Assembly: GCA_964036045.1 (NCBI GenBank)
Contig: OZ038378.1
Location: forward strand, 59,557,408 to 59,621,407
Source: Eutreptiella sp. 'Long Island Sound 2002'
Taxonomy: Eukaryota > Euglenozoa > Euglenophyceae > Eutreptiales > Eutreptiaceae
DNA length: 64,000 bases
Direction: 5' to 3'
Position numbers and translations under genes: made by a program. The number at the start of each line of letters is the position of its first letter. Position 1 is the first letter of the stretch. This document shows positions 13,435 to 56,575 of this stretch, one piece after another. The notes beneath the pieces were generated by a model. It searched no databases. It worked only from the letters and a program-made list of their open reading frames with translations, and was not told where the DNA came from.

Positions 13435-15851
13435 GCCCCGGCTCCAAGATCCCAGGCGCGAAGGATGGAGAGACGCCCGTGCCCACGTCATTCAAGAAGG
13501 CACGGGTCAGTGACCGCGTCGTTGTGCTGTTGAAGGGCTCCCACGGCGGCCGTTACACCCCGGAAGTGCGAGAGCCAAGGTTCGGGCAAGATGTCGCTGT
13601 CTGCCACAAGCCATTACACCGAAGATCCAAAGACCGGGAACCTGAAGAGAAACATCTCCAAAGGCGACATGGACTTTGTGACGGAGGACGTCATCGGATG
13701 TTGGGTGATCGCGGAAGCAAAGACTTCTACTCCGGGGCAGCGAATTGCGGCCCGAGCATAGCAGTCCCGCAAACGGAAAGGGGGCGAGGAGTCCAAAGAT
13801 GAAGACGAAGACAAGGAAGAAGAGGAGGAGGAAGACGAGGAGGAGGAGGAGCGAGAAAGCGTGACGGAGATCCCGGAAGAAGAGGCAAAGGAGGCAGAGA
13901 AAGAGAGGAAGAAAAAGAAGCCGGCGAAGGAGAAGCACGCCACCAAAAAACGGTTGCCGGTCCCGTTTTTCAAGGAAATCAAAGCCGAAGGTAGTGAGGC
14001 CGCCTCGTTGCCCCGCACAAGCAAGAAACGCAGGAAGGCCTCCACCGAGGACGAAGAGAGGTCGGCGGAAGAGGTGCGCATGAACAACGCGTTGGAGGAG
14101 TATGCCACCACCTTGCCGAAGCTTGGGCAACATGTACGCCAATGCCTCCGTGGCCAACCCCACGCCAAGACACTTTTGGCGGCAGCGCTGCAGTTGCTGT
14201 TCGAGTGCCCGAACAGCATTCTTCGTGGTCTCATGTGTATTCGTTCTGATTACATCGTGGCGCAACGCAAGTGCATGGATCTCCTTCGTCAAGCGCGTGG
14301 TCCTCAATACGAGGAATACGCTGGTGTGTGGTTTAGATTAGTTCATACAGGGGCCACTTGGACCGGTTCGTGCAAACTGAGTCTAACCGTTCGAACTGGC
14401 TCACTTTAGCACACTTCACACGAAGACCGGTCGGACCGGTCTGTACAAACTGTCGTAAACCGTTTGGACCGGCTCACTTTAGCACAGTTCACACGAAGAC
14501 CGGTCGGATCGGTCTTTGCGAACTGTCGTAAACCGTTCGGACCGCTCCACTTTGGCCCACTTTATTCCATTTCTCCACAGAGAAGGTCGTGAATGGGGCT
14601 GCAACGTGTCCCAGGTGCTTGGCGATCAAGGATGAGCCCGACATGGACATGCCGGCCTTCCCCGCCGCGTCCGCCGCGCGCCACGTCCCCATCGCCCCAC
14701 CCGCTCACCCGCAGATCCCGGTGCACGTGCAGACCATGGACCAGCTCACGACTCCACAGCTGCGGGAGAAATTCACGGCCCTCAAACGGGAATTGTAACG
14801 CACCGAATTTGAGCTCGTAACGGTATGGAGCACCTAACGGCCGTTCGTGGTAGTTTGCGTAACTCGCTCCCCCCTATGCCGTGCCACTTTCAGGTCCGTG
14901 GGGGTACCCTTCCTACCAGTGATTGGCATGAACCACACGCCGAAACGAGGACGTGGGGAGAGCAGATTGAAGAGATCCGGACAGTTGGTTGGTTCCGTGA
15001 ACAATCGGAGAAGCTGAGGTTGGCCGAGGAAGAGGAGGCGCGCGAGCAGTTTGAACGAATAGAGGAGGAAAGAATCGAAGCCGAACGTGCATTGCAGGTG
15101 TGTGTCCAGACGTCGGCTAGCCTGCATTTGTGCATGGATGGAGTTACCATTGTGGTTTGTGGTCTGCAGGAGGCCCAACGCCGTGAGGAGGCCGCGCGTG
15201 CACGCAAAAAGAAGGATGCGGAGACCGCGCTCTTGGAGACAAAATTGAAGGAATTGCAAAAGGAGTTGGACGAGGCACGGAAGACGGGGATGGATAAACC
15301 GAAGGAGGCGACTCCGGAACCGGTGCCCCAGGACATGGACGACGGGCAGGAAGTGAGAGTAGAGCAGGCAGGCGCAGTGGAGCCGATCGCGGAGGGATGC
15401 GCGATGCCCCCCAGCCAGAACCCGCAACTGAGGCATGCGTTTGCTTTAATGTGTGCTAAAATGTGCTAAAGAGTGATAAAGTGAAGCGGTCCGAACAGTT
15501 TAGGATAGTTTGCAAGAACCGGTCTGACCGGTCGCTGAACGAAGTGTCGCGAAGTGTACCGGTCCGAACGGTTTACGACGGTTTGCAAAGACCGTTCCGA
15601 CTGGTCTTCGTGTGAAGCGTGCTAAAGTGGGCTCGTCTGAACGGTTTAAACCACTTTACTTACTGCTTCTGCAGGAGCCCTCCACCCAGGCACTGCAGCT
15701 GCAGGCGGCATGCGTTGCCGCTGCTACCGGGATTCCGGGGATGAAAATCACCCCGGCCTTCGCCGCACAACAGGCACGACTCGCGCTCCACCTAGAGGCC
15801 CGCAACAACAAGAAGGCCGGGGAGGAGAAGAAGGATAACGAGAATGAGTAA
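13435..15851 (+). CDS. Gene A: multi-exon acidic, lysine-rich coiled-coil protein
   Basis: Exons by eye: 13435-14323, 14581-14816, 14894-15097, 15170-about 15438, 15675-15851. Three introns are phase-consistent with GT-AG ends: 14324-14580 (phase 1), 14817-14893 (phase 0), 15098-15169 (phase 0, a multiple of three with no stop). Exon 1 changes frame near 13585, passes TAG 13759 and then gives a Glu/Asp tract, a KKKKP basic stretch and a helical region. Exon 2 carries CPRCLAIKDEPDMD and passes TAA 14796 within LKREL-stop-RTEFEL, where Gln continues a helix. Exons 3-4 are coiled coil (EEEEAREQFERIEEER). It ends at TAA 15849, or at TGA about 80 nt later if UAR is sense. Probably nuclear; family unknown. 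Several indels remain. Confidence 0.55.
14324..14580 (+). repeat. Intron 1 of gene A, filled with the A repeat
   Basis: A 257-nt intron: donor CTG|GTGTGT, acceptor CCACAG|AG. It holds about three units of roughly 70 nt containing GACCGGTCGGACCGGTC, CGTAAACCGTTYGGACCG and CACTTTAGCAC. The later intron (about 15439-15674) holds the same units in the opposite orientation. Further copies lie at about 12901-13110, 13310-13385, 16075-16265 and 16495-16660. Confidence 0.75.
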
Positions 15852-15970
15852 CTCGTTTTCCTCGGTTTCGCGTATTTGATTTTCTCGACGAACTGTTTTG
15901 GGCGGTCCTGTTGGTGTGGCCGGTGGGCCGTATGATCTTGCAATGCTTGATGGGACACGAGCAACATTTT

Positions 15971-16002
15971 CCATGATTCCATGATTCCATGATTCCATGA
16001 TT
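15971..16002. repeat. Microsatellite (CCATGATT)x4
   Basis: Four perfect head-to-tail copies of an 8-bp unit, just 3' of gene A. Confidence 0.9.
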
Positions 16003-16417
16003 GTCTGCTGCGTGTTTGGTTTGCCGGGTGCACGTACCTCAGTTTGGAAGCAAAAAGTGGTAGGAAAGTCTAAAGTGTGCTAAAGCGAAGCGGTCCGAAC
16101 GGTTTGGAGTAGTTTGCAAACACCGGTCCGACCGGTCTGTGGATAAATTGATTTAAAGTGAAGCGGCCCGAACGGTTTAGAATAGTTTGCAAAGAGCGGT
16201 TTGTGGATAAAGTGATCTAAAGTGAAGCGGTCTAAACGGTTTGGGCTAGTTTGCCGAGACTGGTCCGGAAAGGCTTGTTTTTTTTTTTTTAGGCATGTCT
16301 GCTGCTCAACCATGGGAACCATGCTTTGCGGACCATCATGAACGAACCATGAATAGATGTCTTGTGACGATTGACTCCCAGGCATTGCAATGTCTGTGCA
16401 AAGGTGTGAACACGCAC

Positions 16418-16482
16418 AACACAACACACGCACACACACAACACACACATGCGGACACACACACTACACACACATCACAAAG
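16418..16482. repeat. CA-rich simple sequence
   Basis: Imperfect CACA tract with GCA and ACAC interruptions, inside the 3' part of candidate element A. Confidence 0.8.
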
Positions 16483-16989
16483 TGCTCCAAAGTGTGCTAA
16501 AGTGGTCCGGTCCGTTTAGTTTGCAAAGACCCACCGGTCTCCCCGAACTAACCGGTTGGTTACAGAAAGCCAAAGTGGTGCGAAACGGTCTCAACTGAAC
16601 AGTTGGTGATTTTGCCTAGCCAAAACGGTGCGTTAACAAAGACCGGTGGACCGGTTGTGAAAATATTCGCATATGGTAGCCAAAGGAATATATTCCTTTG
16701 TCTGCCACGCGCAGAACGGAATCAACGTTTTTTGTTCGTCAAAAATGAATCCATAAAGTTTTGTTGTTCCGGGGGCTTTTCGAACGTTCCGGACGTCGTG
16801 GAAGCATCCGTTTTGTTCATTTCCACCGTTTTCCATGTGAGAAGCGTATCGTGCCGTTGCATCTACCTTGGCTTTCGTGCTCCGTGTGCCGCGCGTGTTA
16901 CGCGTGTTACGTGTTCTAAGCGTTCGCTTCTAGGTGTGCCTTTGGAACTCGAATAACTCGTGTCGCATATCCGTGCAAGGCGTGTTCCG

Positions 16990-17628
16990 CGTTCCGCACG
17001 TAACAGACATCACGCTTTTGGAGGCCAGAACCCACATTTTGCGCGAGCTACGCGTCCTCCTGTACCTCAGCCCTTTCTTTATGCCCGCACCGCTTTTCCC
17101 GGACAGCCACAAGCAGTGGCTGGCCAAGAGGGGCCACCCGGGCAGTTGGGGCAGCGCGGCCACGCTGAAGCACAACGCGTTCATCGTGTTCGAGATCAAA
17201 CAGTAGACATGTATGTGATTGTTCAATGGGGTGGAGTACGGGTGTTGTGCCTTTGTATGTCTGCCACGTCGATGTCGTTCAATGTTGTTTCACATTTTTT
17301 GTTTCTGCTTCTGGGGCCGCGCCACACATTTTTGCACAGTTGGGTGGCACGCAGCCTGTTCAACCGCAAGAAAGCGGGCAGCAAGGATCGCCGAGAGGCT
17401 GAGATGTACCTCACCAACGTAACCGCATATCAAGTATGCATGCACGATCACGACAAGTGCCATTATGTTCTGTATGGTCGCACCGTGACGGTCCCTAGTC
17501 TCCATTTTCGATAAGCTGCTTACCCCACCAACTGCCTGCAAATCAAGACGGAGAAAGGATAGCCCCGCGATCCCGCAAAAGTCCAAGATTGCCGCGCTAA
17601 CCCGGATGGATGGTTCGAGTACACAAAG
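16990..17628 (+). CDS. Exons upstream of the piggyBac copy, unrecognised protein
   Basis: Three exon-like segments: about 17000-17205 (LREL, LLYLSPFFMPAPLFPDSHKQ, ending in AFIVFEIKQ before a GT), about 17338-17433 (SLFNRKKAGSKDRREAEM, after CACAG) and about 17515-17628 (CLQIKTEKG-TAG-PRDP, ending in DGWFEYTK). The TAG at 17560 reads well as Gln. The last exon ends exactly at donor AAG|GTTGTT (17629). Whether this is the N-terminal half of the transposase gene or a separate gene is unclear. No known domain is recognised. Confidence 0.4.
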
Positions 17629-17777
17629 GTTGTTCTGGGCGTGCTGCGTGTTGCATCTATGCGTGATTCTGCCCCGTGTCATACGCGTGTTGCGCGTTCT
17701 GCGCGTTTCGCCGATGTGCCTCTCGTTCCGCCTCTGCGGGCGCCGCCACCGTGGTACGCGTGCTGCGCGTTTTGCAG
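17629..17777 (+). repeat. Intron with the P repeat (GCGTGCTGCGCG)
   Basis: A 149-nt intron: donor AAG|GTTGTT, acceptor TTTTGCAG|ATC, phase 0 on both sides. It is filled with variants of GCGTGCTGCGCGTTYTGCGCG. The same repeat lies at about 16845-16990, downstream of the transposase (19616-19790), and around the second piggyBac copy (28196-28358, 28925-29035). Confidence 0.7.
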
Positions 17778-18457
17778 ATCCAAGCGAACCGGTTGTGGAC
17801 CTCGTTGGAGGGCGAACATAAGGAGAGAGTGAGGAGGAAGAGGATGAGGAGGCATCAGCGGACGATGGAGATGAGGAGGAGGAAGAGGAGACCGAGGAGG
17901 AAGACGACGACGAGCCATTGACACCCCATGGCAAGAAGCATGCCCAAGGCACAGCCCGATGACACCGTTGTGCCGGAGAAACACTCCTTTTCTTCCGCAA
18001 AGGCAGCACGGTCCACCATGCTGGACGTCAAGCACGAGCCTGAGATAATGGCAGAGAAGAAGCAGCGGAAGTCGGGGAGCGGAGCCTGCCCAAGGTGCCA
18101 CCGAAGAAGTCCGAGGCGGAGATGCCCAAGAAAAAGAAGGAAAAGGACAAGCCGGCTGGAGGTAACGTGTCCTTTGCGATCGGCGGGAAGGGCCCGCAGA
18201 ACAGCATCAGCGCCGCACCGACAAGAGCAGAGAAGTTCTAGCATGAAGGCAGGTACGACCGTGATCTGGAGACAATGCAGAGAATCTTGGAGATGGACTT
18301 CAATGCAACCGTGGGCCGCTTGGTGATGCACTACAAGGACTGCTTGTCGGAGGAACCCAAGTCGAGGCAAGAGATCGGGTTGGCACTGCTGCTGCACACC
18401 AGTGTCCGGGCCTTGAGCGTGCAAAGCGTGCTAAGATGCAGGACCAAGAACGCGTAG
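17778..18457 (+). CDS. Acidic and basic region preceding the piggyBac transposase core
   Basis: Begins IQANRLWTSLEGEHKER after the acceptor, then shifts frame into a Glu/Asp tract (EEEEDEEASADDGDEEEE), then LDVKHEPEIMAEKKQRK and a Lys-rich stretch. A helical block follows, reading RAEKF, then TAG 18239, then HEGRYDRDLETMQRILEMDF, and ending near TAG 18455. At least three frame changes are needed. It probably forms the N-terminal part of the transposase protein, since the frame that ends at 18457 continues after the TAG into REYFEKRYPSSSPRQVVEGV, which leads into the piggyBac core. Tract length and composition are typical of nuclear proteins. Confidence 0.4.
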
Positions 18458-19480
18458 TCGGCTGCAGCATCCCGCGAGTACTTCGAAAAGCGGTATCCCT
18501 CGAGCAGCCCGCGGCAAGTGGTGGAGGGGGTTTTGAAGCGCTTGTCGGGTTGTGGGCCATGTGGGCAGCTCTCCTTCCTTCCGGGACCATCCTCTGTGCG
18601 GATTCCTTTTTAGGATTGCAAGAGAGAACGTGTGACCTCGCTGCGGAGAGGCACACATTCTTGATGATGACGAAGCGCTCCACGTACGGGGTGGACAAGG
18701 CAGGAGAACTTCTAGCAGAGGCACAAACCGCCACGTGCACTGTGGACGACGCGAGGTACGCCATGGTGGTCTTCAAGAACCCAAAAGTGGGTCACAAGCC
18801 GCCCCGCGTAGTGCCAATGCTAATGAACGTCCACTTCCCACAATCCAGACCCGTGCATCGCCACAGTGGGACTGAGGTGAACCCGGTGGTCGCAGCTACC
18901 GCCAGCTATCGCGTGGGGTGGATGGCGTCAACCAGATGGCACTCCAGATGCGCCAGATGGAACGTCACATGACGTGGTCGCATGCGGTGCGTGCGTTCGT
19001 CCTCCGGTACACCGTGGTCAACGCATACGCGACTTGCCGGTCCCTTGGGGGGGCCCAAACGGGTACCATGTTTGACTGGCAGTCGGACCTTATCCGGTGC
19101 AGCTTTTGTGCTGTGGCAGTGGCCAAGCCCATCCACGTGCCGGTGCGGATGCCGGGCCGCCGGGTGTGCACCCATTGCAACCGGGGCGAGACCCACTACG
19201 TTTGTTGTGGGTGCGACAAGTGGTACCATGTGGGGTGCTTTGCCGTGGCACATGGGGTGACCGGGGTGGTAGAGGCGGATGTGGAGCAGGAGAGCGACGA
19301 GGCCGAGGAGGATGGAAGCGAGAGGGAGGAGAGTGAGGATGACACGGAGGAGGAGATTGGGGAAGAGGGGGAGGACGATGAGGAGGAAGAGAGTGAGGAG
19401 GAGGAGGAGAGTGACGAGGAAGAGGATGAGGACATGGACGATGACGAAGATTAGGAAGGAGAAGGTGGTTGAGGGCGGGC
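18458..19480 (+). pseudogene. piggyBac-type transposase, copy 1, frameshifted
   Basis: DDE transposase of the piggyBac group (cut-and-paste, TTAA targets in known members). Seen in order: GTILCADSFLG and LMMTKRSTYGV (second catalytic Asp region), MVVFKNP with VVPMLMNVHFP, ATASYR followed after a frameshift at about 18913 by GVDGVNQMALQMRQ (the GVD.xDQM signature), MTWSHAVRAFVLRYTVVNAY (Trp- and Asn-containing helix), then a C-terminal zinc-binding block VCTHCNRGETHYVCCGCDKW. It ends in an Asp/Glu tail, with TAG 19452 before TGA 19467. A second frameshift lies near 18560. The first catalytic Asp was not found. Inactive as it stands unless the indels are assembly errors. Confidence 0.7.
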
Positions 19481-19507
19481 CTGGTGGAATCGTGAACTTC
19501 ATGGCCG

Positions 19508-19587
19508 CCAAGCCTCTGCCATCCCTACCCATGGGACCAGTGCGAACCCCGGGGGACAACCGCGTAGGCTGGATACCCAAACTGTGA
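19508..19587 (+). repeat. Conserved 3' module shared by both piggyBac copies
   Basis: About 75 nt encoding LPSLPMGPVRT and then QPRRLDTQ (in one frame of copy 2) are nearly identical at 28808-28883. Copy 1 lacks one base relative to copy 2, which shifts its last codons. It probably encodes the transposase C-terminus. Confidence 0.7.
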
Positions 19588-19615
19588 GGACGCTGCCCCC
19601 CAAAAGTGCGCGTGT

Positions 19616-19790
19616 GTGCAATAGTGACGTGCTCCGAGTGCTACGCGTTTTGCGCGTGCCGGAAGTCTGCTTCTAAGTCTAACTCTAGAACGCTGTGCTT
19701 CGCGTTTTGCGCGTTCTGCGCGTGATGCATGTGCTGTTTGCGTTCTGCACGTGCTGCGCGTGTTGCGTGTTATGAAGCCACACGCACAGC
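19616..19790 (+). repeat. P repeat block downstream of the piggyBac copy
   Basis: Runs of GCGTTTTGCGCG, GTGCTGCGCGTG and variants, matching the intron at 17629-17777. Possibly the 3' end of the element or a further intron. Confidence 0.6.
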
Positions 19791-20039
19791 ACCTATTGTG
19801 CCGCGCGGAGCGCTTCTGGACGGAAACGTCCCCTCTGTAGACAATGGAATACACCACCTATGGCAACAGCCCCTTCCCAGTTGCCGTCTATCGCACTTGC
19901 TGTGCCAAAGGTAGCAAGGCACAGAGCACGGTTACACATGCAGACCCAACACACGGTGGCACCAGGGGATTTTGCCTTCCAGTTTTGGCAGCCCGCCATG
20001 AGCACGCGTGCTTTCCCATCTGCACAAAAAAAAAGGGGA

Positions 20040-20855
20040 CTACCTATCGTTCCCTCCCGTATCCTTAAAACTTACGGTTGCGGCCTTGCGCAACTCGTCA
20101 TCAAAATCAATCTTTTGGGAGGCCGCGTACAGGGTCTCCCACTTTTCACTGCCCCCTAGTAGCCACCAACTAGATAGTTGGTTGGGGCTGGCGGTGCCAC
20201 CAAGCATGCAATGGACGTACGACGCCTCATGCCGCGATGTACCGTCCACCGCAATAGGCAACCAATGGAGCCGTCGGTCCCCGGGCTGTATGATGTTCGA
20301 GTGTGGGGGTGGTCGACACTTGAACAGGTGGCCGATGCGGTCAGGTAGGTAGCAGGCCGCACCATGGATGGCCGTGTCGTCTCCCGTATAGGCAGTGAAC
20401 GCCCGGGACTCCGGTAACGCTAGCTGCCGAAGCATGCCGTACACCTGGTCCCATGCCACACCGTACGTGATGCTCCCCACTAGGTACCGCGACTCCGTCC
20501 TAGAGAGATGCAATGACCATATCCGCCAGACGGCCATAATCAACCTCTCCTCCATGGTGGGCTCAGGCTAGATGGTCACTACAACTCTTGTTTCGCGGGT
20601 AAGAACTATTTGTGCCGTGTCGGGCAGGTACTTGACGGTGTAGGGTGCCGCAAGCTCCTTGGTAACAACTTGCTGGAGCTCTTGTAGGCGCCTCCGTTGA
20701 GTACGACCCGCTAACAAAGGGAATGCCTCCTTGGGCCGCGGCATGGTCTGAGGTACAAGACCTGTGGAATGGGGCAGGCATTTATCGCAGGTTTCTACCA
20801 TCCCCCTGCCCCAGGCAACTAAATTTTGTGGGAATCTGGTGTAATTCGCACGCAA
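20040..20855 (-). CDS. Unrecognised protein of gene set B with one in-frame UAG
   Basis: Two ORFs in the same frame (20855-20568 and 20555-20040) are split only by TAG at 20568-20570. Sequence features include RTQRRRLQELQQVVTKELAA, RLIMAVWRIWSLHLSRTES, FTAYTGDDTAIHGAACYLP and LGGSEKWETLYAASQKIDFD. No domain is recognised. It ends at TAG 20040, which overlaps a plausible splice donor (GATAG|GTAGTC) with an acceptor TTTGTGCAG just beyond, so the protein may continue. B-family palindromes lie immediately upstream (20830-21010), as expected for another intron of the gene at 21.4-25 kb. Confidence 0.45.
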
Positions 20856-21010
20856 TTAGACGACATTCACAAAAATTTATACGAAATTCGTACGAAATTC
20901 GTACGAAGTTCGTACGAATTTCGTAGGAATTTCACGTGAATGAATGTGTGTCAACAATGAGGCAATGTGAAATTCGTACGAAATTCCTAGGAATTTCACG
21001 TGAACGTCAA
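20830..21010. repeat. B-family repeat block
   Basis: Several tandem TTCGTACGAA units plus TTTCACGTGAA, between minus-strand coding segments. Likely an intron by analogy with 22859-23116, but splice sites were not resolved. Confidence 0.7.
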
Positions 21011-21437
21011 ACAATTTTTGCCGAAGAAAACATTTGACTCATCCTTTTGCCCTCGTTGGTTCTCACAAAGCAAGCAAAGGATGGAGCTCAGGGGCTACCA
21101 CACACCTAGTACAATGGTCATCATTCAGGCTGACACACAGTCAGCAGTGTAACGAATCAGGGGGCATAGGATACCCCAACTAAAATACAAACAGTGCCGA
21201 AGAAAACTTCGCAAAGTGGGGGGGGAGTACCCCACATGTTGGTCAAACTGCCCATGCCTGGGGGGGGGGGGCAGGATATTTGTACATATATTCATATATA
21301 AAAATGTGCAAATAACATCCGTGGAGGTTAGAAGGGATAGGTGGTCCCGAAGTTAAAGGGTGAGGTACGCCCCCCTTCCCCCCCCTAGAGCAGAGCTCCG
21401 GCTAGCGGAGCCCTGGGAGCTCTGCTCCGCCACTGCG

Positions 21438-22004
21438 TCAACAAAGGAGGGGTCGATGGCCGCCAACGTGAGGCGGGGGGGGGGGGGGGTACTGCCGGCG
21501 CACATCCTCCAGTGCGGCACTCACCCTGGGGGCGTCAGGGGCCACGCTGTCCACATCGGCCTGCTGGCCACTCGTCATCATGGCTATCCGCAGGCCGGTG
21601 GACACCGCCGACATGTGGCCGGCGTATGCCTCGGCCTGGGCATGCCAGGCCTGTGCGCCGGCCAAAACGTACCGGACACTGGCGGCACTGGGGGCCCCCT
21701 CCGCCCTATCACCCGAGGGGGCCTCGGCGCCCTCAGGCCCCTCCCCTACCTGTGCCGGTGGCTTTGCCTTGCGCGCCGTCCCCAGGTCGCGCACGACGGT
21801 TTTCACCCTGGTGGCCAGGCGGTCCCGCTCCTTGGTGACGTCCGCCAAGCGCGACTCGGCGGCCCGCCTGTCTTCGTCGACGGCCTCCGCGCCTCTGCCG
21901 TGTCGGACATAGTCTTGGAGTCCCGGGGGGTGCAGGGCACCCTCCGCCTCTTCATCCCCCGCCCCATTGTGGTCATGGGGGGTTCCAACCTGCCCGAGGG
22001 GCAC
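21438..22004 (-). CDS. Putative coiled-coil segment, gene set B
   Basis: Contains AESRLADVTKERDRLATRV and SVRYVLAGAQAWHAQAEAYA, typical of a helical linker protein. Codon content is plausible on this strand. The plus strand at 21915-22235 also gives a credible sequence (EGHELVGLFAYRLVGGHLRV, WDKRRPEWVDVAWLSMPV), and at 22340-22560 (QRVAVHEWVEQQQHVQ, then TAG 22472). The coding strand is therefore unsettled, and pieces of two elements may be nested here. Confidence 0.3.
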   Translation of the reverse strand: MPLGQVGTPHDHNGAGDEEAEGALHPPGLQDYVRHGRGAEAVDEDRRAAESRLADVTKERDRLATRVKTVVRDLGTARKAKPPAQVGEGPEGAEAPSGDRAEGAPSAASVRYVLAGAQAWHAQAEAYAGHMSAVSTGLRIAMMTSGQQADVDSVAPDAPRVSAALEDVRRQYPPPPPPHVGGHRPLLC

Positions 22005-22237
22005 GAGCTAGTGGGCCTGTTTGCCTACAGGCTTGTGGGCGGGCACCTGCGGGTGCAGACGGGGGTGTCGCGGATTGGGGAGGAGGGGACGGTGACCAGG
22101 GCTGGGGTCTTTGGGCTTAATGTGGTCACGAGGTGGGACAAGCGGAGGCCGGAGTGGGTGGACGTGGCATGGCTTTCCATGCCCGTCCATGTTGCGAGCC
22201 AGCGGCAGATGGGGGGGGGGGGGTGTCGTCATTGACA

Positions 22238-22858
22238 TCAGGGGGGGGGGGGGCGAACCCCCTGCCACCCCCTCGGCCCGGAAGCGGAAACGCCGCCCCC
22301 TTGAAGGCGACACCGAGCCCCCCCCCCCCCCCGAAAGCCCTGCGTATGGCCGACCCCGTGGAGCGGGCGGAGCGGGCGGAGAGGGCGGAGCCGGCGGCGG
22401 GGCGGGGGCAGAGGGTGGCGGTGCACGAGTGGGTGGAGCAGCAGCAGCACGTGCAGCGGGCGGGGGCGTGGTAGGCGCGCGCGATCAGCGAGATGCCGCT
22501 GCCGCCCATCGGGCCCGGGCGGCACCTTCTGCGTCCCGGCCGGATCTGGCTGCCTGGGGGCCAGGGTGACCCGGTCCAAGGGGGGCTCGGTGTGGGCGGT
22601 GCCCAAGTCCTCGCGGGACGGCATGGGGACAACCACCTCGCGCGGCGCATGCCCCGCACTGGTTGCCTCGCTGCCGGCCCGTGCAGAACGTCCAGAGCGC
22701 CGCGAGCCCTCACTGCGCCCACTGCCGGACTCGCTCGGGGTCTGTCCACCATCGGTGCCTCCGGGCGGCTCGCCGTGCTCCTCGGGCAATCGGGGCCGGG
22801 GCTTGAACCGGCGCCGGGCGTGGTGCCGAACGTCCGGCGACGTCGCGTACAACGGGAC
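22238..22858 (-). CDS. Pro/Arg-rich exon of gene set B
   Basis: Begins at 22858, right after acceptor CTGTAG, with V-P-L-Y-A-T-S-P-D-V in phase 0 relative to the upstream exon. It is rich in Ser, Arg and Gly (SESGSGRSEGSRRSGRSARA) and probably disordered. Coding is believable to about 22520; beyond that C and G runs (22210-22335) break the frame. No domain is seen. Confidence 0.4.
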   Translation of the reverse strand, partial: VPLYATSPDVRHHARRRFKPRPRLPEEHGEPPGGTDGGQTPSESGSGRSEGSRRSGRSARAGSEATSAGHAPREVVVPMPSREDLGTAHTEPPLDRVTLAPRQPDPAGTQKVPPGPDGRQRHLADRARLPRPRPLHVLLLLHPLVHRHPLPPPRRRLRPLRPLRPLHGVGHTQGFRGGGGARCRLQGGGVSASGPRGWQGVRPPPP

Positions 22859-23116
22859 CTACAGACGGGGAGAAGTGTGCAAGGCACCAATTGAGAATGG
22901 GGGAGCAAACATGGAGCAACGCAACAAGAAAACGAAGAAATTGGACGAAATTCGTACGAAACTGGTGCGAATTTCGTAGGAATTTCACATTGCCTCAATA
23001 TTCACACAAATTCATTCACGTGAAATTGGTACGAAATTCGTACGAATTTCGTGCGAATTTCACGTGAATTTCGTCCAATTTGCCAATAAACAAAGCAAAT
23101 ACACAAGCAAACGCAC
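22859..23116 (-). other. Phase-0 intron of gene set B with hairpin-forming B repeats
   Basis: A 258-nt intron on the minus strand: donor AAG|GTGCGT at 23117/23116, acceptor CTGTAG|GTC at 22859/22858, phase 0 on both sides. Inside, AAATTGGACGAAATTC (22938-22953) and its exact reverse complement (23066-23081) bracket a run of TTCGTACGAA and TTCACGTGAA palindromes, so the intron can fold into a long stem. Confidence 0.7.
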
Positions 23117-24918
23117 CTTGCAATCACAGGGGCATGTGATTGACCATTCCCTGGACTTCGCGCATCTTGGCGACCGACACATTGGGGCCGTGTTCGCAAG
23201 ATGCCACAGCGTGGTTGGCCGCCCCGGGGGAGCAACGCCGGACATGGCGAAGTGGATCTCCGACTCCGCATCGAGATTTTCCCCCTTGTTGACCTCCACC
23301 TGGTGCACGCTTCCCACCAAGAAGCGCATGCATTGCTCGCCGACCTCGATGACGGCGAGGTCGGAGGCCGGGGCTGACCGGGAGAGGAAGGTGGGGTGGA
23401 AGGGGCAGGTGGGGGGGCTGGCCGGGACCGCCTCGGGGGGGTCGGCGAAGAGGGCCTGGGCAGCATCCCCCTCCCACAACCGCACCCTCCCAACCGACTC
23501 CTTCCCCACCCACAACACCTTGTCCACGCTGGGGACGTCCCAGCTTGACAAATCCCCAGCAACATCCAGTGCCTCCTTGGGGGGGGCTGAGGTCTAGGGG
23601 CGTGGTGTTGGGCCGGTGGTGGCGGTGCCCGCGGTCGGGGGTCCACAAGTTAAAAAGAGCCCCCTGCAGCCCAACCCGGCGTTAGGGGGGGCGGGCAACC
23701 CATGGTGGCGGCTGGTGGCCACCATCAGCAGCATGTCCCCCCTCCCTGCTGAATGGTGTCCCAGCGCGCCTCCCCCGCCTCCCCCAGGGACGTCCCCGGC
23801 TGCACCGCCACCTGGTAGTCCTCAGCTAAGCAGAGGAAGCTACTCAGGTGGCACCCCCAGATGTCCCCGCTGCACCTCGGGGTGGGTGGCGACATCGGAG
23901 TGGGGCAGCTGGGCACCACTTCCCACACTCGCCACGATGATGCTGCCCGGCGTCGCTGGGTGGAGGTCCCCAACCTGAGGGACGCTTTCTGTGAGGTAGG
24001 GGTGGAACTTCTTGAAGAGAGGCCTGCCCAAACCCGACCGCAAGGTGTTTTTGCTTTGCCAACCCCAGGGGAGCTCAGGATCCCTCGCTTGATCTTCACT
24101 GCGAGAGGTGTTGAAAAGCAGCTCAAAATGTTTTGCGACGACTTTTTGTCGCCGCTGCCCCTTGCCCTCATCAGCTTGTTCCACCCCACCTCGCAATCTC
24201 GTGCTTCTACAAGCCCCCGAAACACAATGTAGCCGTTCCCATCAACAAAGTTGAGGGGCGGCTGGGAGGGGCCAACCCCGTCGGGGGCGGGGTCGGGGTT
24301 GCCCATCACCCCATGAGGGGGGTTGGGAAGGGGTTCGGTGCGGAGGGGGGGTTCACTCGAAATGAAGGGGGGGGGCATTGAGGCACCACGGTACCATTGC
24401 AAAGAAGTTGTAGTGTAGCAGGTGGGGTGGGTGATGTCGGGGATGTGCACCTGGGGGGGGATGGTTGGATGGAAAAGGGCGATGCCGAAATCATCCCACC
24501 ACCGGGGGTTGGCAAGGTGCCAGGAGAAGGGCACAAAGGAGTGGTTTGCCGCTGCATATGCAGCAAGATCGTGCAGTCACACCATGTCGCATTGGTGGGG
24601 GGTATGCACGAGGTTAGTGGTGGGGTACACCTGGACGTGGGCGTATTTAGGCTTCCCCACAAGGTTAGTGCGCATGGAATTGAGGAGTTGGTCAACACTG
24701 GAAGCCAAAGGGGTCAGATGCAGAAATTTAAGGGACGGTAGTTGGCGGCGCAGTTCCCTCCACAACTTTGTGGCCCAGCCCCTCTCCCCAGGGTAGGAGT
24801 TGCGGGAGGGGCTACGCAGGTCTATGTGAATGACCCCGGGGGAGGGGTCGAGGGATGCTGCCAAGCCCACATCATCATCCACCCCTAGTGCCCTTGACAG
24901 GTACGTCGCCTCCTCCAA
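23117..24918 (-). pseudogene. 2OG-Fe(II) oxygenase-like protein of gene set B, with frameshifts
   Basis: Read on the minus strand from 24918: IHIDLRSPSRNSYPGERGWA, SVDQLLNSMRTNLVGKPKY, then TGA at about 24577, then HDLAAYAAANHSFVPFSWHL in the same frame. FVDGNGYIVFRGLV resembles the N-terminal strand of 2OG oxygenases. After a frameshift come SIIVASVGSGAQLPHSDVAT (a candidate H-x-D metal site), GCHLSSFLCLAEDYQVAVQ and, across a G-run frameshift, GDMLLMVATSRHHGLP (candidate distal His). The last part passes TAG 23594 and continues WDVPSVDKVLWVGKESVGRV to the intron donor at 23117. If right, it would bind iron and 2-oxoglutarate. The family call rests on motifs only. Confidence 0.45.
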
Positions 24919-25079
24919 TTGATGGTGGGCGACGGGGAGGGCTTGGCAGTTGGCGAGGGTGTCGGCTACGGGTCGGGGCGCGAGGCCACGCTGGCGAGCT
25001 GGGACATTGTTTGCCGGGACATGGCCAAAAGAGAATGCAAAGAAAGGCTTTGAGAGCCGTCAGAAAGCGAAACAGTCGA

Positions 25080-25260
25080 AATGAGGGTAAATTCGTACCA
25101 ATTTCGTACCAAAATGCTAAGGAATTACGTACAAATTCATACGAAATTCGTGCGAATTTCACATTCTCGTGAATCTTTGAATCTAGCGTGAATTTATGCG
25201 TGAATTTGGGTGTGTGAATTTCACATTCACGTGAATCTCACCAAATGTGTTGAACCATGC
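25080..25260. repeat. B-family repeat block
   Basis: TTCGTACC/TTCGTACGAA-type units and repeated AATTTCACATTCACGTGAA at the 5' side (minus-strand sense) of the oxygenase-like gene. Confidence 0.65.
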
Positions 25261-27290
25261 GGCTACTTCAAACCTCTAATTTGCACACATTTGTTGGGTC
25301 TCACTTTGGGCGAAGATAGCACGACAAAAGCACACGATGGCACCAAGTTACGAGCAAAACACAGCAAAAATAGGTGAAATTCATGGTACCGTGAATCTCG
25401 GATTCAAACGGTCGGTTCACGAAGGGTACGCCTCCATGAACACGAAGCACGGCATGGCCACGTACATGACTTGCCCACCCTCATGAGTCACCAATGTGCA
25501 CAACTGAAGAACTTGCAACGAGGATCACAAAATATGAGTCGGGAGAGTGACCTCACGGCAATGGCAAACACTACTTGACCCCTGGCATGTGTGACATATA
25601 TATCGTCATGATGGCAATGCCTCCGTACTTCACTGCGGACGCCGGGTGCCCGTCACTCAGCAATATCATACACAATGGCTAACAAGTGAATAGGCTTGGC
25701 GGGTTTGCTTGGTGCCTGCAAACAAGACGTTAAGAAGGGCCAGCCCACCAAACGTCACATGTTTAGTGTATGCTACATACCAATTGCTGGGCTCCCTACG
25801 GTTAGAGTGTCGCGAACCGAAGACATGAATAGAGAAACCAACACACAACGTATGTCACATGCCGTCACATCCTTGGACATGCCACTCGGTCCCATCACCT
25901 GGTGCCTCATTGCTTGGGATCCGATGGCATAGGCATACACAAATCGTCATGTGCATTAGAAACCATCCACACATGGACATGTGAAATCAATATTGCCTAT
26001 CTGTATGTTCGTGTGACACCGAACCAATTCAATGGATGCTACTTAGAGAGAGATTGGGTAAGAAGATTGGGTGAGAAGATGCCCCGGGTCACAGGTACAG
26101 ACCTAGACCCGGCCCGCAGAGTGAGTGCACAAAGAGAGATATCCCGGGTCCAATGAGAGCACATCCATGTTGAGATTGTCCCATCCCAAAGAGAAGCAGT
26201 CCTGCCTTGAAGCGAGATGGTCCCGCCCCAATCCAGGCCTTGAGACAGATGGTCCTACCCCAATCCATGCCCGGAGAGAGAACCTAACCAATCGAAGGCC
26301 CAGGAGAGAGAACCTCACCAAAACCCAATCCGGAGAGCATGCATATGGAGAGAGAGTTTTGCCTAACCATGATCCAGAAGAGCATTCATGCACTTGGAGT
26401 GAGAATCCACAAATGTGACGGAGAATTAATATTGTACCCAATTGCCAAAGTAAATGAACTCATGCCCTGCTGGTAGCTGACAAGAGAAAAATAGTGGATA
26501 ACCAACCATCTTTGTCCAATGATATGAATTCCACGAAGGCCGACAAACTAAGACAGCAAATGAGAGGTTAGCAACTAGGGCACAAGTGCAATTCTCCACC
26601 TTTCCTCATGTTCACGCACTGCACGTGCACACATCATGCTCAACACACGCAATCTCCAAAGATTGACCCTCTTTGATTCCATGGAAGATCAAGTTGTTGC
26701 GACACATATGCAAGGCAAATAAGTGATAAGCAAAAGAATGAAGACTTTGCCGTGCGGAGGAACGAGTGAGTTACTTTCTTCCCGCCCGGTGCGCCTACCT
26801 CAGCCACCTCCACTTCAACTCCTCTTCCACTAGGGCTTCTCCAAGTTCAAGGGACTCGTGATCCCCCATACATGTAGGCGTGGCAAAAGCCGAAGCAAAA
26901 TGCGCCCATTAATGTGTAGTAATCCCGTTTTACGGGGCCTGCCGGTGTGGGCGGACACACCACACCAGGGTTTAGCCAGATACTAAGTCCGGGCCTCCTA
27001 TCATCCACTGGAGTTGCCCTAGCTTCCCATTCGCATCCATTTCAGCAACACGATGGAACTAACACTATTAGCACCCACGGGGAAGAATTTTCAGACAATT
27101 GGCCCGCATTGAAGAACAGAGAGCAGACGCACACCACGAGGAACACGAGAAGGGCACGCGCGCACACATCAGGCCTGATTCGCACCAAAAGTGTCAAATT
27201 CTCCATCCTGTGAATTATAAATGATATAAATTCGGAATTTTCCTGAATTCATAGCCGAAATCGCTGAAATAGCTGAAATCGCTAAAGTGT
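25261..27290. other. No convincing gene
   Basis: Short frames only. A degenerate block of roughly 30-40-nt units (GGAGAGAGAACCTAACC-like, CCCAATCC-like) lies at about 26140-26350. A run of GCTGAAAT/CGCTGAAAT units lies at 27255-27290. Confidence 0.45.
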
Positions 27291-45028: not shown

Positions 45029-45029
45029 C

Positions 45030-51060: not shown

Positions 51061-51139
51061 GTGGGGGGCATCACCTTTTTGCACACCCATTTTGACACCA
51101 ACCCCCCCCCCCCCCGCCCCTTCCTCCAAGCATCACATC

Positions 51140-52214
51140 TATATCAGACGTATCACACCTCGTGTGGTGTACAATGCAAAAACAACATGCCATATCAGAC
51201 ATCCGACATCACACTTTATACACAATCCTGGGGTCAGACGGGGCACGTGTTCAAGGAGGAGTTCTTGGCGAAGGATGGCAAGATAGTGGTGAACATAAAG
51301 ATGGCGGCGGACAACGCGGGCGAGACGTGGGGCGGCATCTTCAACGTGGCATGGACAAGCCCAAACCGGCCACCGTAATCAGGCGACAAGGCTGCGGTGT
51401 ACGCAGTGATTCCGACGGGCAGTGGGGGTCAAGACGAAGGTCTTCGTACGATCAGTTTCCTCACGTTGTACTTTGGGCGCAAAGGGTCGTGCAAGCCTCT
51501 CTACGAAGTACCCGGGTGTGTTCTTGGTGCAGGTTGGGTACGTGCGGGCAACCTCGGATGAGCCACAGCTACGGCATTGGGATCTGACGCTGAAGTTGCA
51601 AACCGTTGGGGCTGGAGTAGGCCTTCTCGTGCTTCATGTTTGTGAATATGGACTGCCCCATGGACGGCCGCGAGAACATGTTCGTGTACGGTTCTGGCTT
51701 TTGTGTTCCCTACCCGTGGCAGAAGGTCTCAATTAGTATGCTGGCGGGTGACCTCTGGATCCTGCGCAGTTACGTCATTCACCGTGGTTGGGCTATCCCA
51801 GGAGATGCGCTGCCTGGATCAACCCGTATCATTGCCTTTGCCGCCGTTGCGACGCTCCGCGTCGACTACGAGATGACCGTGTTGATCATTCCGCCACCCT
51901 GGGCTGAAGCCCCCACGCAACAACCGTCGTGCCCTAAAGCCGTGTACTATACAGCAGCGCAATGCAACCCTGTGGTGAAGGCTGACCCGCCGCCCAAGTA
52001 TTTCGCTTGTGACAGCCGTCCTCTTTGTGCTGTACATGTGGGTCAACTTTGCGCGGACTGCGAGCACGTTTCCCGGCAAGATGCGCCTGCTGTGGAGGAC
52101 GCGCCTGCGGAGATGGCTGCCGAGAGAGGAGAGGAAGTTGATGAGGGGACGCAGAAGATGGTGGAGGAGGATCTATGTAGGGTTGGCGGCTTTGGTGCCC
52201 TTGGTACACGCTAG
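51140..52214 (+). CDS. 2OG-Fe(II) oxygenase-like C-terminal half, frameshifted
   Basis: Segments: FKEEFLAKDGKIVVNIKMAA, GETWGGIFNVAWTSPNRPP, TAA 51376, SGDKAAVYAVIPTGSGGQDE, ISFLTLYFGRKG; then after a shift LGLE, TAG 51618, AFSCFMFVNMDCPMDGRENM, FVYGSGFCVPYPWQKVSISM, GDLWILRSYVIHRGWAIPGD, STRIIAFAAVATL. GDLWILRS-VIHRG and STRIIAF would fit the distal His and the 2OG-binding Arg of a double-stranded beta-helix oxygenase, as in the 23-24.9 kb protein. It ends in an acidic tail at TAG 52212, next to C-family repeats. Family call is tentative. Confidence 0.4.
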
Positions 52215-52500
52215 AATACACCATCTCGTTCTAGCCTAGAACCCGCTAGAGCAGCTAGAACGAAAAAAAAGGGGGATACCCCCCCCCCCCGAAGGGGGGG
52301 GATTGGAGGTGTCAAACCTGGACCCCCCTATCCGTACTCGGGGGCCCATACTTTTTTTTTTCACAACTTCACTTTTCTGACCTGATTTTGTAGTCGAAAA
52401 TTTTTTCGTTCTAGCGGCGTTCTAGCGACGTTCTAGCGAGCGTCGCTAGAACGCCGCTAGAACGGTTCGCTAGAACGCCGCTAGAACGATATATATGAAT
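52215..52500. repeat. C-family repeat block: CGTTCTAGCG then CGCTAGAACG
   Basis: Three forward CGTTCTAGCG-type units (about 52405-52440) are followed by reverse-complement units (about 52443-52490), giving a near-perfect long hairpin. Looser copies lie at 52215-52265. It marks the 3' edge of minus-strand gene set C. Confidence 0.8.
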
Positions 52501-52666
52501 GCTCCGCCACTCCTCAAAGAGAAGCTGCCCCGGCTACCATGGCCATCCGTGGCCAATCACAGGGTCCCGATGCTAGACCCAACTCACGGAGCGACAGAAT
52601 CCCCCCCCTACGACCCCCGGTCAGCCCGGTTCGCCCCCCACCGCACCCCATAGGTCACTTGAAAGG

Positions 52667-53762
52667 TCAGTTGGCGGGCCGGCGCCAGGTCACTTGGTGG
52701 TGGGTTAGCCCGATTAGCCCGGTTAGCCCGATTAGCCGACCTGCCCCCCCAGGCCCCCATTTGCGAGTCACGACACCGAGGTTACCCCTCTTGCGTGGTG
52801 GGGGGTTGCCGGGGCTGATCCTTGCTCCCGGCACCCCCCTTCTCACCCCCCGTGTCCCCTTCCTTCTCACCCTCCTTGTCACCCCCCACCTCAACCTGCT
52901 TGTCACCCCCCTCCCCCTTGTCACCACCCTCGTCCCCCTCGTCATCCCCGTCATCCCCGTCGTCCCCGTTGTCCCCGGCCCCCAAGGCCTCCCGGAGGTG
53001 GGCCTCCGCTTCCTCCCGGGTGAGGAAGAGGAGCTCCTCCGCCACCCGGAGAGTGCCCCCCTCTTTCTCCCGCTTCCTCTTCTTCCCCTTCTTCCCCTTC
53101 TTCCCCCCCTCCCCCTCCCCATTGGAACTGTGACACCACCAACCACTCCCCTGGGTCCAACTCCTCATCCCAATCCCCCAACACCGTCACTTGGCTGACG
53201 GTCCCCCCATTGCTCCCCTCCCTCCAAGGGACATACCGGGTGTCCCCCACACCCCGCACATTCCCTTAGGGGTCGCGGCCCCTTTTTTGCAAGGGGGGGG
53301 CTTGGGGGTGGGGGGGGGTTGGCTTTGCCCTTGCCCTTGGCCTAGGGCTTGGCCTTGGCCTTGAGCTCGCCCTGCTGCCCTTGGGGGTGGGGCGCCTCTG
53401 CGTCGCTACTCTCGAAGTGGCGGGGTCTTTTCTTGGGGGCCCTTTGGGGGGGGGTTTGGGGGCCTTGGGGGGGGTGTCTCCCCCCCGCTGCGGGTGTTGT
53501 TGCTGCTGCTGCTGCTGTTGCTATCATCCCCCGCCCGGTCCTGCAACCTCCCCCAACCCTTGTGCTGCGGGTCCATGCCCCCCGCACTCGTGCCCGCTTC
53601 CCACCTACCCAAACCCTCCAGCATTGAAAGGGCCAAATGGGGGTTTGTCCCCATCATCCGGCTCAACTCGGTGACCCCCACGAGGCGCGTCCGCCCTCCG
53701 CCATCGCGCCACCCCGCGCGCACCCCGCGGGGGTCGGCTCCACACGTCTGCACGCTGACAAC
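52667..53762 (-). CDS. Gene set C, 3' exon(s): acidic/basic tail
   Basis: Starts at 53762 after acceptor TCTTCAG with VVSVQTCGADPRG, then LVGVTELSRMMGTNPHLALS, a Ser/Asn/Pro region, and in another frame HFESSDAEAPHPQ and AKAKP, TAG 53342, AKGKGKA. After a G-run shift comes RDP, TAA 53266, GNVRGVGDTRYVPWREGSNG and VTVLGDWDEELDPGEWLVVS; finally KKGKKGKKRKREKEGG and an Asp/Gly tail. Both UARs read well as Gln. Unknown family, probably nuclear. Confidence 0.45.
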
Positions 53763-53917
53763 CTGAAGACACAAACAAAATGCAGGTGCGTTCTAGCGGC
53801 GTTCTAGGCAACCGTTCTAGCGGCGTTCTAGCGACGTTCTAGCGGCGGCGGCACGGCGGTGGCTAGATCAACGCTAGAACGGTTGGCTAGATCAACGCTA
53901 GAACTCAATCAACATAC
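53763..53917 (-). other. Phase-0 intron of gene set C with CTAGAACG hairpin
   Basis: A 155-nt minus-strand intron: donor ACG|GTATGT, acceptor TCTTCAG|GTT, phase 0 on both sides. It contains CTAGAACG/CGTTCTAG units in forward and then inverted order. Confidence 0.75.
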
Positions 53918-55245
53918 CGTGCCTTGGCGGTCCATGGCGGAGGAGATTGCCCTCAGGGCCTTGGCGAAGGCGTCCCGGGGGTTGGGGGGGTGCGGCTGCG
54001 GGGGCCCAAAGCGGGGGTTGCGGCGGGCTTGGGCTTGGACTTGGGCCGGGAGGCGATGCCGTGCACCAACCCGGCATGAGCCCCCGGGTTCGCCGCCTCC
54101 GGATTGAAACCCCCGAAGTCCTGCAGCGCCGACCAGGTCTGCTTCCACACCGGGGCCTTCTCCACATACTCCATCCCCCATCGCCCGTGGGTGCCCCCCC
54201 CCCTTTTTCCGCTCGGGGGTGAAGATGTTGGTTTGCGCCTACTCAAACATCTTCACCCCCATTTTTTTTCGGGGGGGGGGCACCTCCCCCCATCGCTTCC
54301 CCGGCCCCTGGCAACTCACGTTGCCACCCCCACGACCCGTTGACCACCCCTAGGTGCAGGGCCTTGTCCAGGTGGATAACCCCCCCCTCGTCCACCCATA
54401 CCCACCGCCCCGCCCCCAACAGCCGGTGGTGCACCCGCACCAACAAAAACCGGAGAGTCCATACCGGACTCTCCGGGGCGACGAGGAGGGGGGTGTCCAG
54501 GTTTTGGGAGGTGGGGCCAGCCAGGACAGCCGGGTCCCATGGCAAGACCTGGAGGGCCCCCGCACACCTCGACCCCATCATCTGCCTGAGCCACTGGCTC
54601 GCCCTCCCCCCCGCCGGCGACGCCACGACCGCCTTCGCCTCCTCCTCCCTCTTCACGATCTCCTCCTCCATCTCCTCTGCCTCCGCGTCCAACTCCACCA
54701 CCTCGTCCACCTCCTCTTCCTTCACCCTCGCCACCACTGCCGCCAACTCCCTCTCGCTCTGCCGCACCGCGCGATCGAACCCCTCGATCGCCTCCTCCTT
54801 CTCCGCAACCTTCACCTTCGCCTTGCGAAGGTTGGCCTCCCCCCAGTGGATCCTCTCCGCATCCCATCCCTCCCCGAGGCTGGCCAATTTCGTCTCCCAT
54901 TGGGAGACTTTGGTCTTAGCCCTTCCCTTGGCCGCCTTGGAGGCTGCAAGGGAACCCAAGAGCCCTTTGAGCTCCCCCCGCGCCTCCTCCACCTCCGGGT
55001 CCTCCTCCGCGGGGACCGCTGCCGACCCCTGCTTCCGGGCGACCAACGGGGGAGGGGGTGGCGATGTCGGATGAGGGGCTTGGGGTTGGGGCTCGGCCTT
55101 GGCCTTGGGCTTGGGGAGGGGGGGTGCCTTGCCCTTCAGCCTTTGGCTCCGCCTCCTCGGCCGGAGCCTGCCGTGCCCGCCTTTGCGCCTCCAGGATATC
55201 CGCAATCAGCGCCTGGGTCGCCGCATTGTGTAGCAGACACAGAAG
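53918..55245 (-). CDS. Gene set C, coiled-coil exon region
   Basis: On the minus strand: NAATQALIADILEAQRRARQ (near 55235), a Pro/Lys linker, then a long coiled coil (AASKAAKGRAKTKVSQWETK, LRKAKVKVAEKEEAIEGFDR, VKEEEVDEVVELDAEAEEME), SPVWTLRFLLVRVHHRLLGA and EGGVIHLDKALHLGVVNGS. After a shift at a G run near 54270 come YVEKAPVWKQTWSALQDFGG and AFAKALRAISSAMDRQGT, ending exactly at the intron donor. Overall layout resembles gene A. No catalytic domain is seen here. Confidence 0.5.
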
Positions 55246-55365
55246 CGTTCTAGCGGCGTTCTAGGCAACTTTTCTAGCGGCGTTCTAGCGATAGTCTAGC
55301 GGCCGATCGTGCTGCCTAGATCAAGACTAGAACGATTCCCTAGATCACCGCTAGAACGCACAACA
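55246..55365. repeat. C-family repeat block (probable intron)
   Basis: Three CGTTCTAGCGG-type units followed by CTAGATCAAGACTAGAACG and CTAGATCACCGCTAGAACG, again forward then inverted, between coding segments of gene set C. Splice sites are less clear than at the other two introns. Confidence 0.7.
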
Positions 55366-55492
55366 CGACATATGCCTGCCTCATCAGCTCGTCCATCTGC
55401 TCTTGCGATGCCATCTTGCGAAATAATGTGGTTCAGGGAAGCCTGCATGTGGCCCTGGCCCCTCTTTACCTCCATGGCATCCCTGGCCGAGC

Positions 55493-55950
55493 ATGGCACT
55501 TGCGACCGGGAGGCTAGGTCGGTCACCCCTGCGCTCCGTCAAGACTTGCAAGTTCGCCTGTCGGAGAGTTGCAGGTTGGAGCGTTTATGGGTCAGCTTCC
55601 CCGGACGGGGAGGAGACGGCCAATTTTTTTGACGCATGCCCGGATATTGCTAAGTGCCTCGGCATTAGGCCAAGCTCGTCCAAGTACAAGACCATCGCGA
55701 ACTTGTGGGACCTGCTGCAGGCCCTCTATTGTACATATCAGGGCCCCAACCCATTGAATTGTGCTGCTGTGGCCCGTGATTTTCGGCGACCGTGTAGTGT
55801 CGGAACAGCATCATGGTATCTACTAAGCCTTGAGCATGATGTAGATACCATGTTGCAGAACATTAAGCCATTTGGCGTGGCTATGTTCTCGGGTGACATT
55901 TCGGAAAGCAGTAACCGCTTTCTGAAACATGGTCACAACGAGCACAGCAG
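55493..55950 (+). CDS. Transposase-type C-terminal fragment on the opposite strand
   Basis: Reads ANFFDACPDIAKCLGIRPSS, SKYKTIANLWDLLQALYCTY, EHDVDTMLQNIKPFGVAMFS, GDISESSNRFLKHGHNEHSS. This is a plausible conserved block and similar in style to the ends of the ORFs at 12 kb and 38.9 kb. It stops in a G run at 55953. It lies head-on inside the minus-strand gene set C, so an insertion of one element into another is likely. Confidence 0.45.
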
Positions 55951-55959
55951 CCGGGGGGG

Positions 55960-56447
55960 GGGGGGGGGGGGGCTGTCGGGTGGAGGGGGTGGACGAGGTG
56001 TCGGGTCGTCCGTGGTCGGCCATCCACAGGGAGGCCAATGTGCAAGCACAGTGCATGACATGGTTGTTTGCATACTTTGACGTGTCGTGGGTTGTGCAAG
56101 CGGCCCATGGCCATTGTCAAGTGCAAAATGCACAAGACGACCCAGGCACGTGGCAATTTTAAAATGCGTTGTGTACTGCAGCCGGCGGCTTGCAAGGATG
56201 GCCTCCCAAGGAGAAAGGCCGTGTAGTTGGCCTCATCACCCTCCACGGTCCGCGGGTTAGCACCACCCTCCCAAGTCTTCGTTTGGGCATTCCATATCCC
56301 CTCCTTAAACATGGAGCACACTTGGGGGCATGTGGACACCCCGATCACGCGTCGCCTCCACGGTTGATCCCCAACCGGGATCACCTTTGCCTCCTCCTTG
56401 CAGGCCCCCCATTGGACCAGCCCCGTGTTGATGATATCTTGAATCAC
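55960..56447 (-). CDS. Gene set C exon: transposase-like
   Basis: Begins at 56447 after acceptor GTTTAG with VIQDIINTGLVQWGACKEEA, then PWRRRVIGVSTCPQVCSMFK, EGDEANYTAFLLGRPSLQAA and RAWVVLCILHLTMAMGRLHN. In phase 0 with the upstream exon. The last part contains low-complexity Pro and joins the inverted insert, so its true end is unclear. Confidence 0.5.
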
Positions 56448-56575
56448 CTAAACAAGAGACATGGGGGGTGGTTAATTTCGTTCTAGTCTAGTCCAATCTA
56501 GCGTCTAGCGAGCGGTGTTTGAGGCCGACTAGATCAAGACTAGAACGAGTGAAAGGCACTAGGTGAGAGGAGTAC
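56448..56575 (-). other. Phase-0 intron of gene set C with CTAG hairpin
   Basis: A 128-nt minus-strand intron: donor GGGAG|GTACTC, acceptor TTGTTTAG|GTG, phase 0 on both sides (NWE | VIQD). It holds CGTTCTAGTCTTGATCTAG and CTAGACTAGAACGA in inverted orientation. Confidence 0.75.

Follow-up and report, generated by a model that had tools for sequence, protein, structure and literature searches.

Family-specific motifs shared by the ends and introns of transposons in Eutreptiella sp.: probable sites for element-encoded DNA-binding proteins

It is known that repeats at the ends of transposons can be bound by the element's own protein. In CACTA elements (En/Spm, soybean Tgmt*), a TNPA-like protein encoded by the element binds its subterminal repeats, which are not the same in different families within a species, stand in direct and inverted order, form stem-loops and have been termed cis-determinants (PMC2613891). 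In piggyBac and piggyBat, the transposase dimer uses its paired C-terminal cysteine-rich domains to bind palindromes that are unrelated between families (PMC11707139). Here, we describe a 64,000-nucleotide stretch of nested-transposon-rich DNA (the window) from Eutreptiella sp. 'Long Island Sound 2002' (GenBank assembly GCA_964036045.1, 2.28 Gb in 2205 contigs; contig OZ038378.1, positions 59,557,408 to 59,621,407). Three transposon families in the window, designated A, B and C, each carry a short motif of their own in arrays at the ends of the element and again within its introns. A further family (D), a broken piggyBac-like element (PB1) and two relatives of family B from other loci (B2 and B3) were compared with them.

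A first-pass annotation of the window, made from the sequence alone, held that no described system matched this arrangement. CACTA and piggyBac elements do have terminal arrays of a similar kind; the placement in introns is another matter, as no description of a family-private code inside the introns of an element was found in the open-licence literature searched. Family-specific subterminal repeats are present in A, B, B2 and B3 as in CACTA elements, which are described, in the available part of the source, as carrying them at the borders (PMC2613891), whereas here they also lie inside the element, in introns. The ends also differ from those of CACTA elements, being CCC.. or TGT.. and lacking a 5'-CACTA terminal repeat: most of 16 family-A copies begin CCC(T/C)TGG.., and the B2 copy has TGTACCTGCGG ends with CT on each side. 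In place of a 3-bp target site duplication, a 2-bp direct repeat flanks 13 of the 16 family-A copies, and one of the remaining three shows a 3-bp match; TA was considered as the family-A target site and rejected, as the 16 copies moved the ends outwards, where the two repeated bases have no fixed identity. Relatives of C and PB1 resemble the piggyBac transposase, but the palindromes of piggyBac are described at the ends in the part of the account available (PMC11707139), and those here occur in introns too. The TGT..ACA ends and 2-bp flanking repeat of the one B2 copy are also those of PlavakaA (CMCT group), reported together with fungal transposons that carry an oxygenase gene (PMC12730594). 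However, intron arrays are not mentioned for Plavaka in the available portion of that source, and as the B2 transposase had no profile match among Pfam families, no group membership was assigned to it.

With a large tandem array excluded, words of the family-A motif took the first three places among 8-mers by frequency in the window, and the words of B and C ranked highly among GC-rich low-complexity words. Single words were confined largely to their own element, with 25 of 26 occurrences of CGTTCTAG in the bins covering 52-57 kb, 14 of 15 of CGTACGAA in family-B arrays and 12 of 14 of ACCGGTCT within 13-16 kb. When motif words of 7 or 8 bases were counted, family A had 14 in 444 bp of introns and 13 in 413 bp of termini, family B had 21 in 547 bp and 12 in 758 bp, and family C had 11 in 493 bp and 10 in 872 bp, while the scored exons of the three families (3539, 4068 and 1606 bp, respectively) contained none. 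The words were picked from the same arrays that were later scored, and the sites of one array are not independent; these counts are therefore descriptive and not a test, and Fisher values for introns against exons are indicative only. Motif places fell inside their own element in 27 of 33 cases for A, 33 of 35 for B, 26 of 31 for C and 11 of 15 for PB (two PB copies). Thus, the claim of the first-pass annotation that introns and element edges share a motif within a family holds for four of the five introns it listed, each of which has its motif at the ends of its own element as well. Those four also have exact GT-AG ends; the fifth (17629-17777, GT..TTGCAG) lies in a broken gene and is a putative intron. 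Three arrays (55225-55385, 15439-15674 and 20762-~21060) and family D (59.2-65.0 kb) are additions to that list.

The arrays of family A are composed of asymmetric units in inverted order around CTAG, and palindromic cores are found in B, B3, B2, C and D. An 11-bp step was the most common in A (111 of 346 gaps of up to 60 bp) and in B2 (14 of 25), and the tandem unit of the B array is also 11 bp. The distances between array centres, which were typed by hand, were 2475, 2510 and 2500 in the B2 copy, 995, 1211, 1454 and 1400 in A, and 2213, 2060 and 2175 in B after subtraction of the nested insert. Even spacing was not retained as a rule, as the pattern was seen before it was tested and one locus (L011) departs from it (coefficient of variation, 0.35); it is a lead only. 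A forecast of the next family-D palindrome near 65.0 kb was followed by one at 64976, with two others (64338 and 64702) that had not been forecast.

A first look at the genome gave 6605 candidates for the family-A exon. Twenty further stretches were fetched, all of which carry the family-A motif; the 15 copies with both ends located were counted, the other five being left out, and 16 copies, including that of the window, were aligned. Across the 15 copies, 366 motif sites were found in 71,714 bp of element and one in 64,101 bp of flank, where two copies (L010 and L012) have common flanks and so are not independent. Tested words of B, B2, B3 and C were absent from the same 15 elements, and the flanks held one, of B. 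Intron positions were constant across the aligned copies, with intron 1 kept in 15 of 16, intron 2 in 11 of 16 and intron 3 in 15 of 16. Intron 1 had a GT donor in 15 of 15 copies and an AG acceptor in 14 of 15 (one copy, L028, is cut off within the intron and was left out); the corresponding values for intron 3 were 14 of 15 and 13 of 15 of the copies counted. Intron 2, decayed in the window copy, begins GTATAT in all 10 of the other aligned copies that span it. The reading frame stays open across the join at 56448-56575 (..KSNWE/VIQDII..), with stops further upstream in the window copy, and 6 of the 120 family-A homologs listed (255 were found) extend into intron 1 out of frame, so that they code for a portion of its array. 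One copy (L023) has two exon-1/exon-2 blocks in direct repeat, approximately 2.4 kb apart.

The relatives of family B differ from it in protein and motif together. The B3 transposase (6954 first-look candidates) shares 54-55% protein identity with that of B (homologs P0155, P0156 and P0159), and its core is TTCG-CG-CGAA where that of B is TTCG-TA-CGAA, the same change being present in internal and terminal arrays. At six B3 loci the centre of TTCGNNCGAA was CG in 24 of 26 sites and TA in none, whether the array precedes the transposase frame or stands at the 3' end; in B it was TA in 7 of 9 sites, spread over the 3' array and the two internal ones, and never CG (two-sided Fisher, 5e-6, with sites within a locus not independent). 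Two of the B3 loci (L046 and L048) look identical, and L047 is without a 3' core. The B2 transposase is more distant (43% identity to the B homolog P0122 over 477 amino acids). Its arrays, of GAGCGCTCACTGAGCG type, occupy the two ends and two positions in the interior, preceding each gene region, and are built of AGTGAGCGCTCACT-type palindromes unrelated to TTCGTACGAA. Of 12 B2 loci fetched, one (L036) was extended, and the B2 arrays were read from one copy spanning the adjoining stretches L036 and L041. The 4684 first-look candidates for B2 include many copies with identical scores, which suggests recent activity. The first-pass claim that motifs differ completely between families does not hold throughout: for B and B3 the difference lies mainly in the middle of the core. 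Exon alignment between B and B2 around 22859-23116 was weak (E 8e-5 and none), and a common intron position is not claimed there. In the first B2 gene (L041:3092-4108), an HxD..H pattern was seen by eye together with a sub-threshold match to a 2OG-Fe(II) oxygenase (PF13640, E 0.053), making it a possible oxygenase gene on a transposon; the frame adjoining it has a relative in family B (window positions 23725-24576; E 2e-11).

The family-B transposase aligns to RAG1 over its best-modelled part. When compared with uninterrupted homologs, its gene is split between ..AVAIG and TITSHRRVP.. by C and PB1, which lie side by side. Two other homologs of B have frames that run from or into the arrays: P0185 from an array of the kind adjoining the transposase exon into that exon, and P0180 into a 3' terminal array. 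Judged by their relatives, C and PB seem to belong with piggyBac. A PB-like frame just beyond the window (L042:7116-7712) matches DDE_Tnp_1_7 at 5e-11, and PB1 itself does so only at E 0.05. A copy of C on another contig (L049, contig C5; 11956 first-look candidates for the family) has the same intron 1, ending TCTCCACAG, with five GACCGGTC sites; a DDE match was looked for in this copy and none was found, while 19 of 35 residues are identical to the L042:7116-7712 frame (E 8e-10). Family C has an inner inverted match of 55 bp (13072-13126/16477-16531). No TTAA was found at the ends of PB1 and C, the bounds of which were set from a single nested copy. In family D, the palindrome TTTCACTGTNNACAGTGAAA (window 59239-64976, continued in L042) occurs at 11 places matching at least 13 of 20 bases and at 10 matching at least 14 of 20 within 14 kb, compared with 2 and 0 in the other 58 kb. 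The D palindrome at 61362 was considered as coding and is, by eye, more likely intronic.

Table 1. Transposon features in the window, with positions numbered from its first nucleotide.
Family	Feature	Position	Strand	Remarks
A	Element	52198..57558 (5361 bp)	-	Inverted match; ends CCCCTGG../..CCAAGGG; 2-bp flanking repeat CA
A	5' terminal repeat and CTAGAACG array	57440..57558	-	
A	Intron 1, CTAGAACG hairpin array	56448..56575	-	GTACTC..GTTTAG, exact GT-AG
A	Intron 2	55225..55385	-	Window copy decayed: GCATAT / CTACACA
A	Intron 3, CTAGAACG array	53763..53917	-	GTATGT..CTTCAG, exact GT-AG
A	3' subterminal hairpin array	52400..52492	not assigned	
B	Element	11572..25428	-	Inverted ends CCCTTCGTGAAC, TA flanks; bounds from one copy; insert ~12890-19847 nested inside
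B	5' terminal array, degenerate	25070..25260	.	One TTCGNNCGAA core, centre TG
B	Intron, TTCGTACGAA/CACGTGAA array	22859..23116	-	GTGCGT..CTGTAG, exact GT-AG
B	Intron-like array adjoining transposase exon upstream	20762..~21060	-	Acceptor CCACAG/GTCTTG by eye; donor not located
B	3' terminal array	11580..11960	.	
B	Transposase, C-terminal part	11985..12887	-	Broken upstream by C and PB1
C	Element, piggyBac-like by relatives	12890..16690	+	Inverted ends CTTTGGCTACCA; outer bounds approximate
C	Intron 1, GACCGGTC array (73-bp units)	14324..14580	+	GTGTGT..CCACAG, exact GT-AG
C	Second intron-like array	15439..15674	+	Donor unclear
C	Right terminal arrays	16060..16690	+	
PB1	Broken piggyBac-like element	16691..19847	+	Nested with C in B transposase gene; bounds approximate
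PB1	Putative intron, GCGTGYTGCGCG direct repeats	17629..17777	+	GT..TTGCAG; GC-rich; in broken gene
D	Element region, palindrome TTTCACTGTYRACAGTGAAA	59239..64000, on to ~65.0 kb	+	
D	Introns (by eye)	61040-61457 and 62397-62607		One palindrome copy each

Three ideas had been offered for the repeats in the first-pass annotation: a family-specific recognition site, a folding device that joins splice sites, and a relic of introns born from the element. The recognition site is the best supported of these and is favored because the motif is common to ends and introns, is kept in copies, is nearly absent from flanks and has changed jointly in relatives. The arrays are thus probably DNA sites, particular to each family, for a DNA-binding protein that the element itself encodes, situated at the ends and internally in introns. 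Each short site, which is a palindrome or a unit in inverted arrays in all the families compared except PB, would be bound by a dimeric protein encoded by the element, either the transposase or a TnpA-like helper. With sites in arrays at both ends and inside the element, protein loaded along it might bring the ends together, and the internal sites, lying in introns or other noncoding gaps, would there impose no cost on the proteins; self-regulation may be a by-product. Binding by a protein, the identity of that protein, splicing in the cell and a benefit to the element are what we infer from this pattern.

Several observations weigh against this interpretation. The copies of family A are young, pairwise distances averaging 0.026-0.101 per segment, and their conservation may partly be recency. 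A DNA-binding domain was not recognized above the cutoff in the candidate helper proteins scanned. The arrays of PB are not palindromic, contrary to the first-pass claim of a palindromic repeat for each family. The steps of family C are 9 and 73 bp rather than 11, and the gaps between frames that hold the internal arrays in B2 and B3 are candidate introns. A family-D palindrome at 63800 falls in a long open frame; exclusion from exons is therefore not absolute. In addition, the divergence of family-A introns 2 and 3 (0.065 and 0.071) is not below that of exon 4 (0.062), as would also be expected if arrays grew and were homogenized by unequal exchange or gene conversion in noncoding parts while exons were purged by selection, with no function in the intron. 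Such neutral spread would likewise yield arrays that are alike within a family and differ jointly between families, and it agrees with the variable length of the 3' hairpin array among family-A copies. It sits less well with the recurrence of sites in the same few clusters across copies, with the divergence of intron 1, which is as low as that of the adjoining exon (0.026 versus 0.033), and with the recurrence of dyad symmetry or an inverted arrangement in six families (A, B, B2, B3, C and D) though most of these sequences are unrelated, and we consider it unlikely.

The remaining accounts fare less well than this. The arrays could act as promoters, insulators or methylation switches, or could give rise to double-stranded RNA that affects the silencing of the element. 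This would accord with the arrays before each gene region in the one B2 copy, with the CpG contained in the A, B, B2, B3 and C core units and with the weak oxygenase match in B2; a motif that is family specific at the ends and in the interior is left unexplained by such control sites unless the controlling protein is the element's own, and this account appears decidedly improbable. Inverted arrays could also fold in the pre-mRNA and join splice sites. When each array was compared with 200 shuffles, five of the six introns or intron-like arrays tested folded better than every shuffle (z scores: 53763-53917, -6.86; 56448-56575, -2.93; 22859-23116, -5.04; 14324-14580, -5.41; 15439-15674, -3.56), and the first-pass statement that most introns can fold back is upheld for four of the five it listed. 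However, folding is no independent evidence, because a DNA palindrome folds as RNA anyway. The folding device leaves unexplained the same arrays at element ends, outside introns, and the intron at 17629-17777, which showed no excess folding (z, +1.24; equalled or bettered by 179 of 200 shuffles), and it is very improbable as the function of the arrays. Least credible of all, and with hardly any weight in our assessment, is birth of the introns from short copies of element ends inserted in the element's own genes. Introners are introns with inverted repeats that are linked to mobile DNA and create new introns in host genes (PMC9860276, PMC7789003); intron and end arrays here do share sequence, and the second C array (15439-15674) is an inverted copy of C intron 1 over 206 nucleotides at 76%. 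The introns described here, in contrast, belong to transposon genes and occupy constant positions, and the best matches of the three family-A introns to the 19-bp terminal repeat (14, 14 and 13 of 19) lie within the range of shuffled sequences (means, 10.4-10.7; maxima, 15, 16 and 14).

Elsewhere in the window, large tandem arrays with units of 22, 52 and 20/50/70 bp occupy positions 42536-51061, the 20/50/70-bp array being open in several frames, and a reverse transcriptase (RVT_1, 1.5e-17) is encoded at 34887-35981. Sites of GGTTCCAGC were identified at 58050-58200 and 40920-41050, at 58 kb partly as TTCCAGCGCTGGAA palindromes, and are perhaps the site of a further family.

Although the binding of end repeats by an element's own protein is familiar, the same private code within introns has no account in the open-licence literature searched. 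More broadly, at least two unrelated transposase groups may shelter internal docking sites for their own protein in their own introns; such sites, set at intervals and coevolving with the protein, would give each family a private address that runs the length of the element, and introns would then be kept for sites acting in cis and not only for splicing. This wider proposal is tentative, and we hold it to be somewhat less likely than its negation. If true, it would help to explain the retention of introns by transposon genes and would allow each protein to be matched to its DNA, and B, B3 and B2 would offer a natural series of joint change in protein and site.

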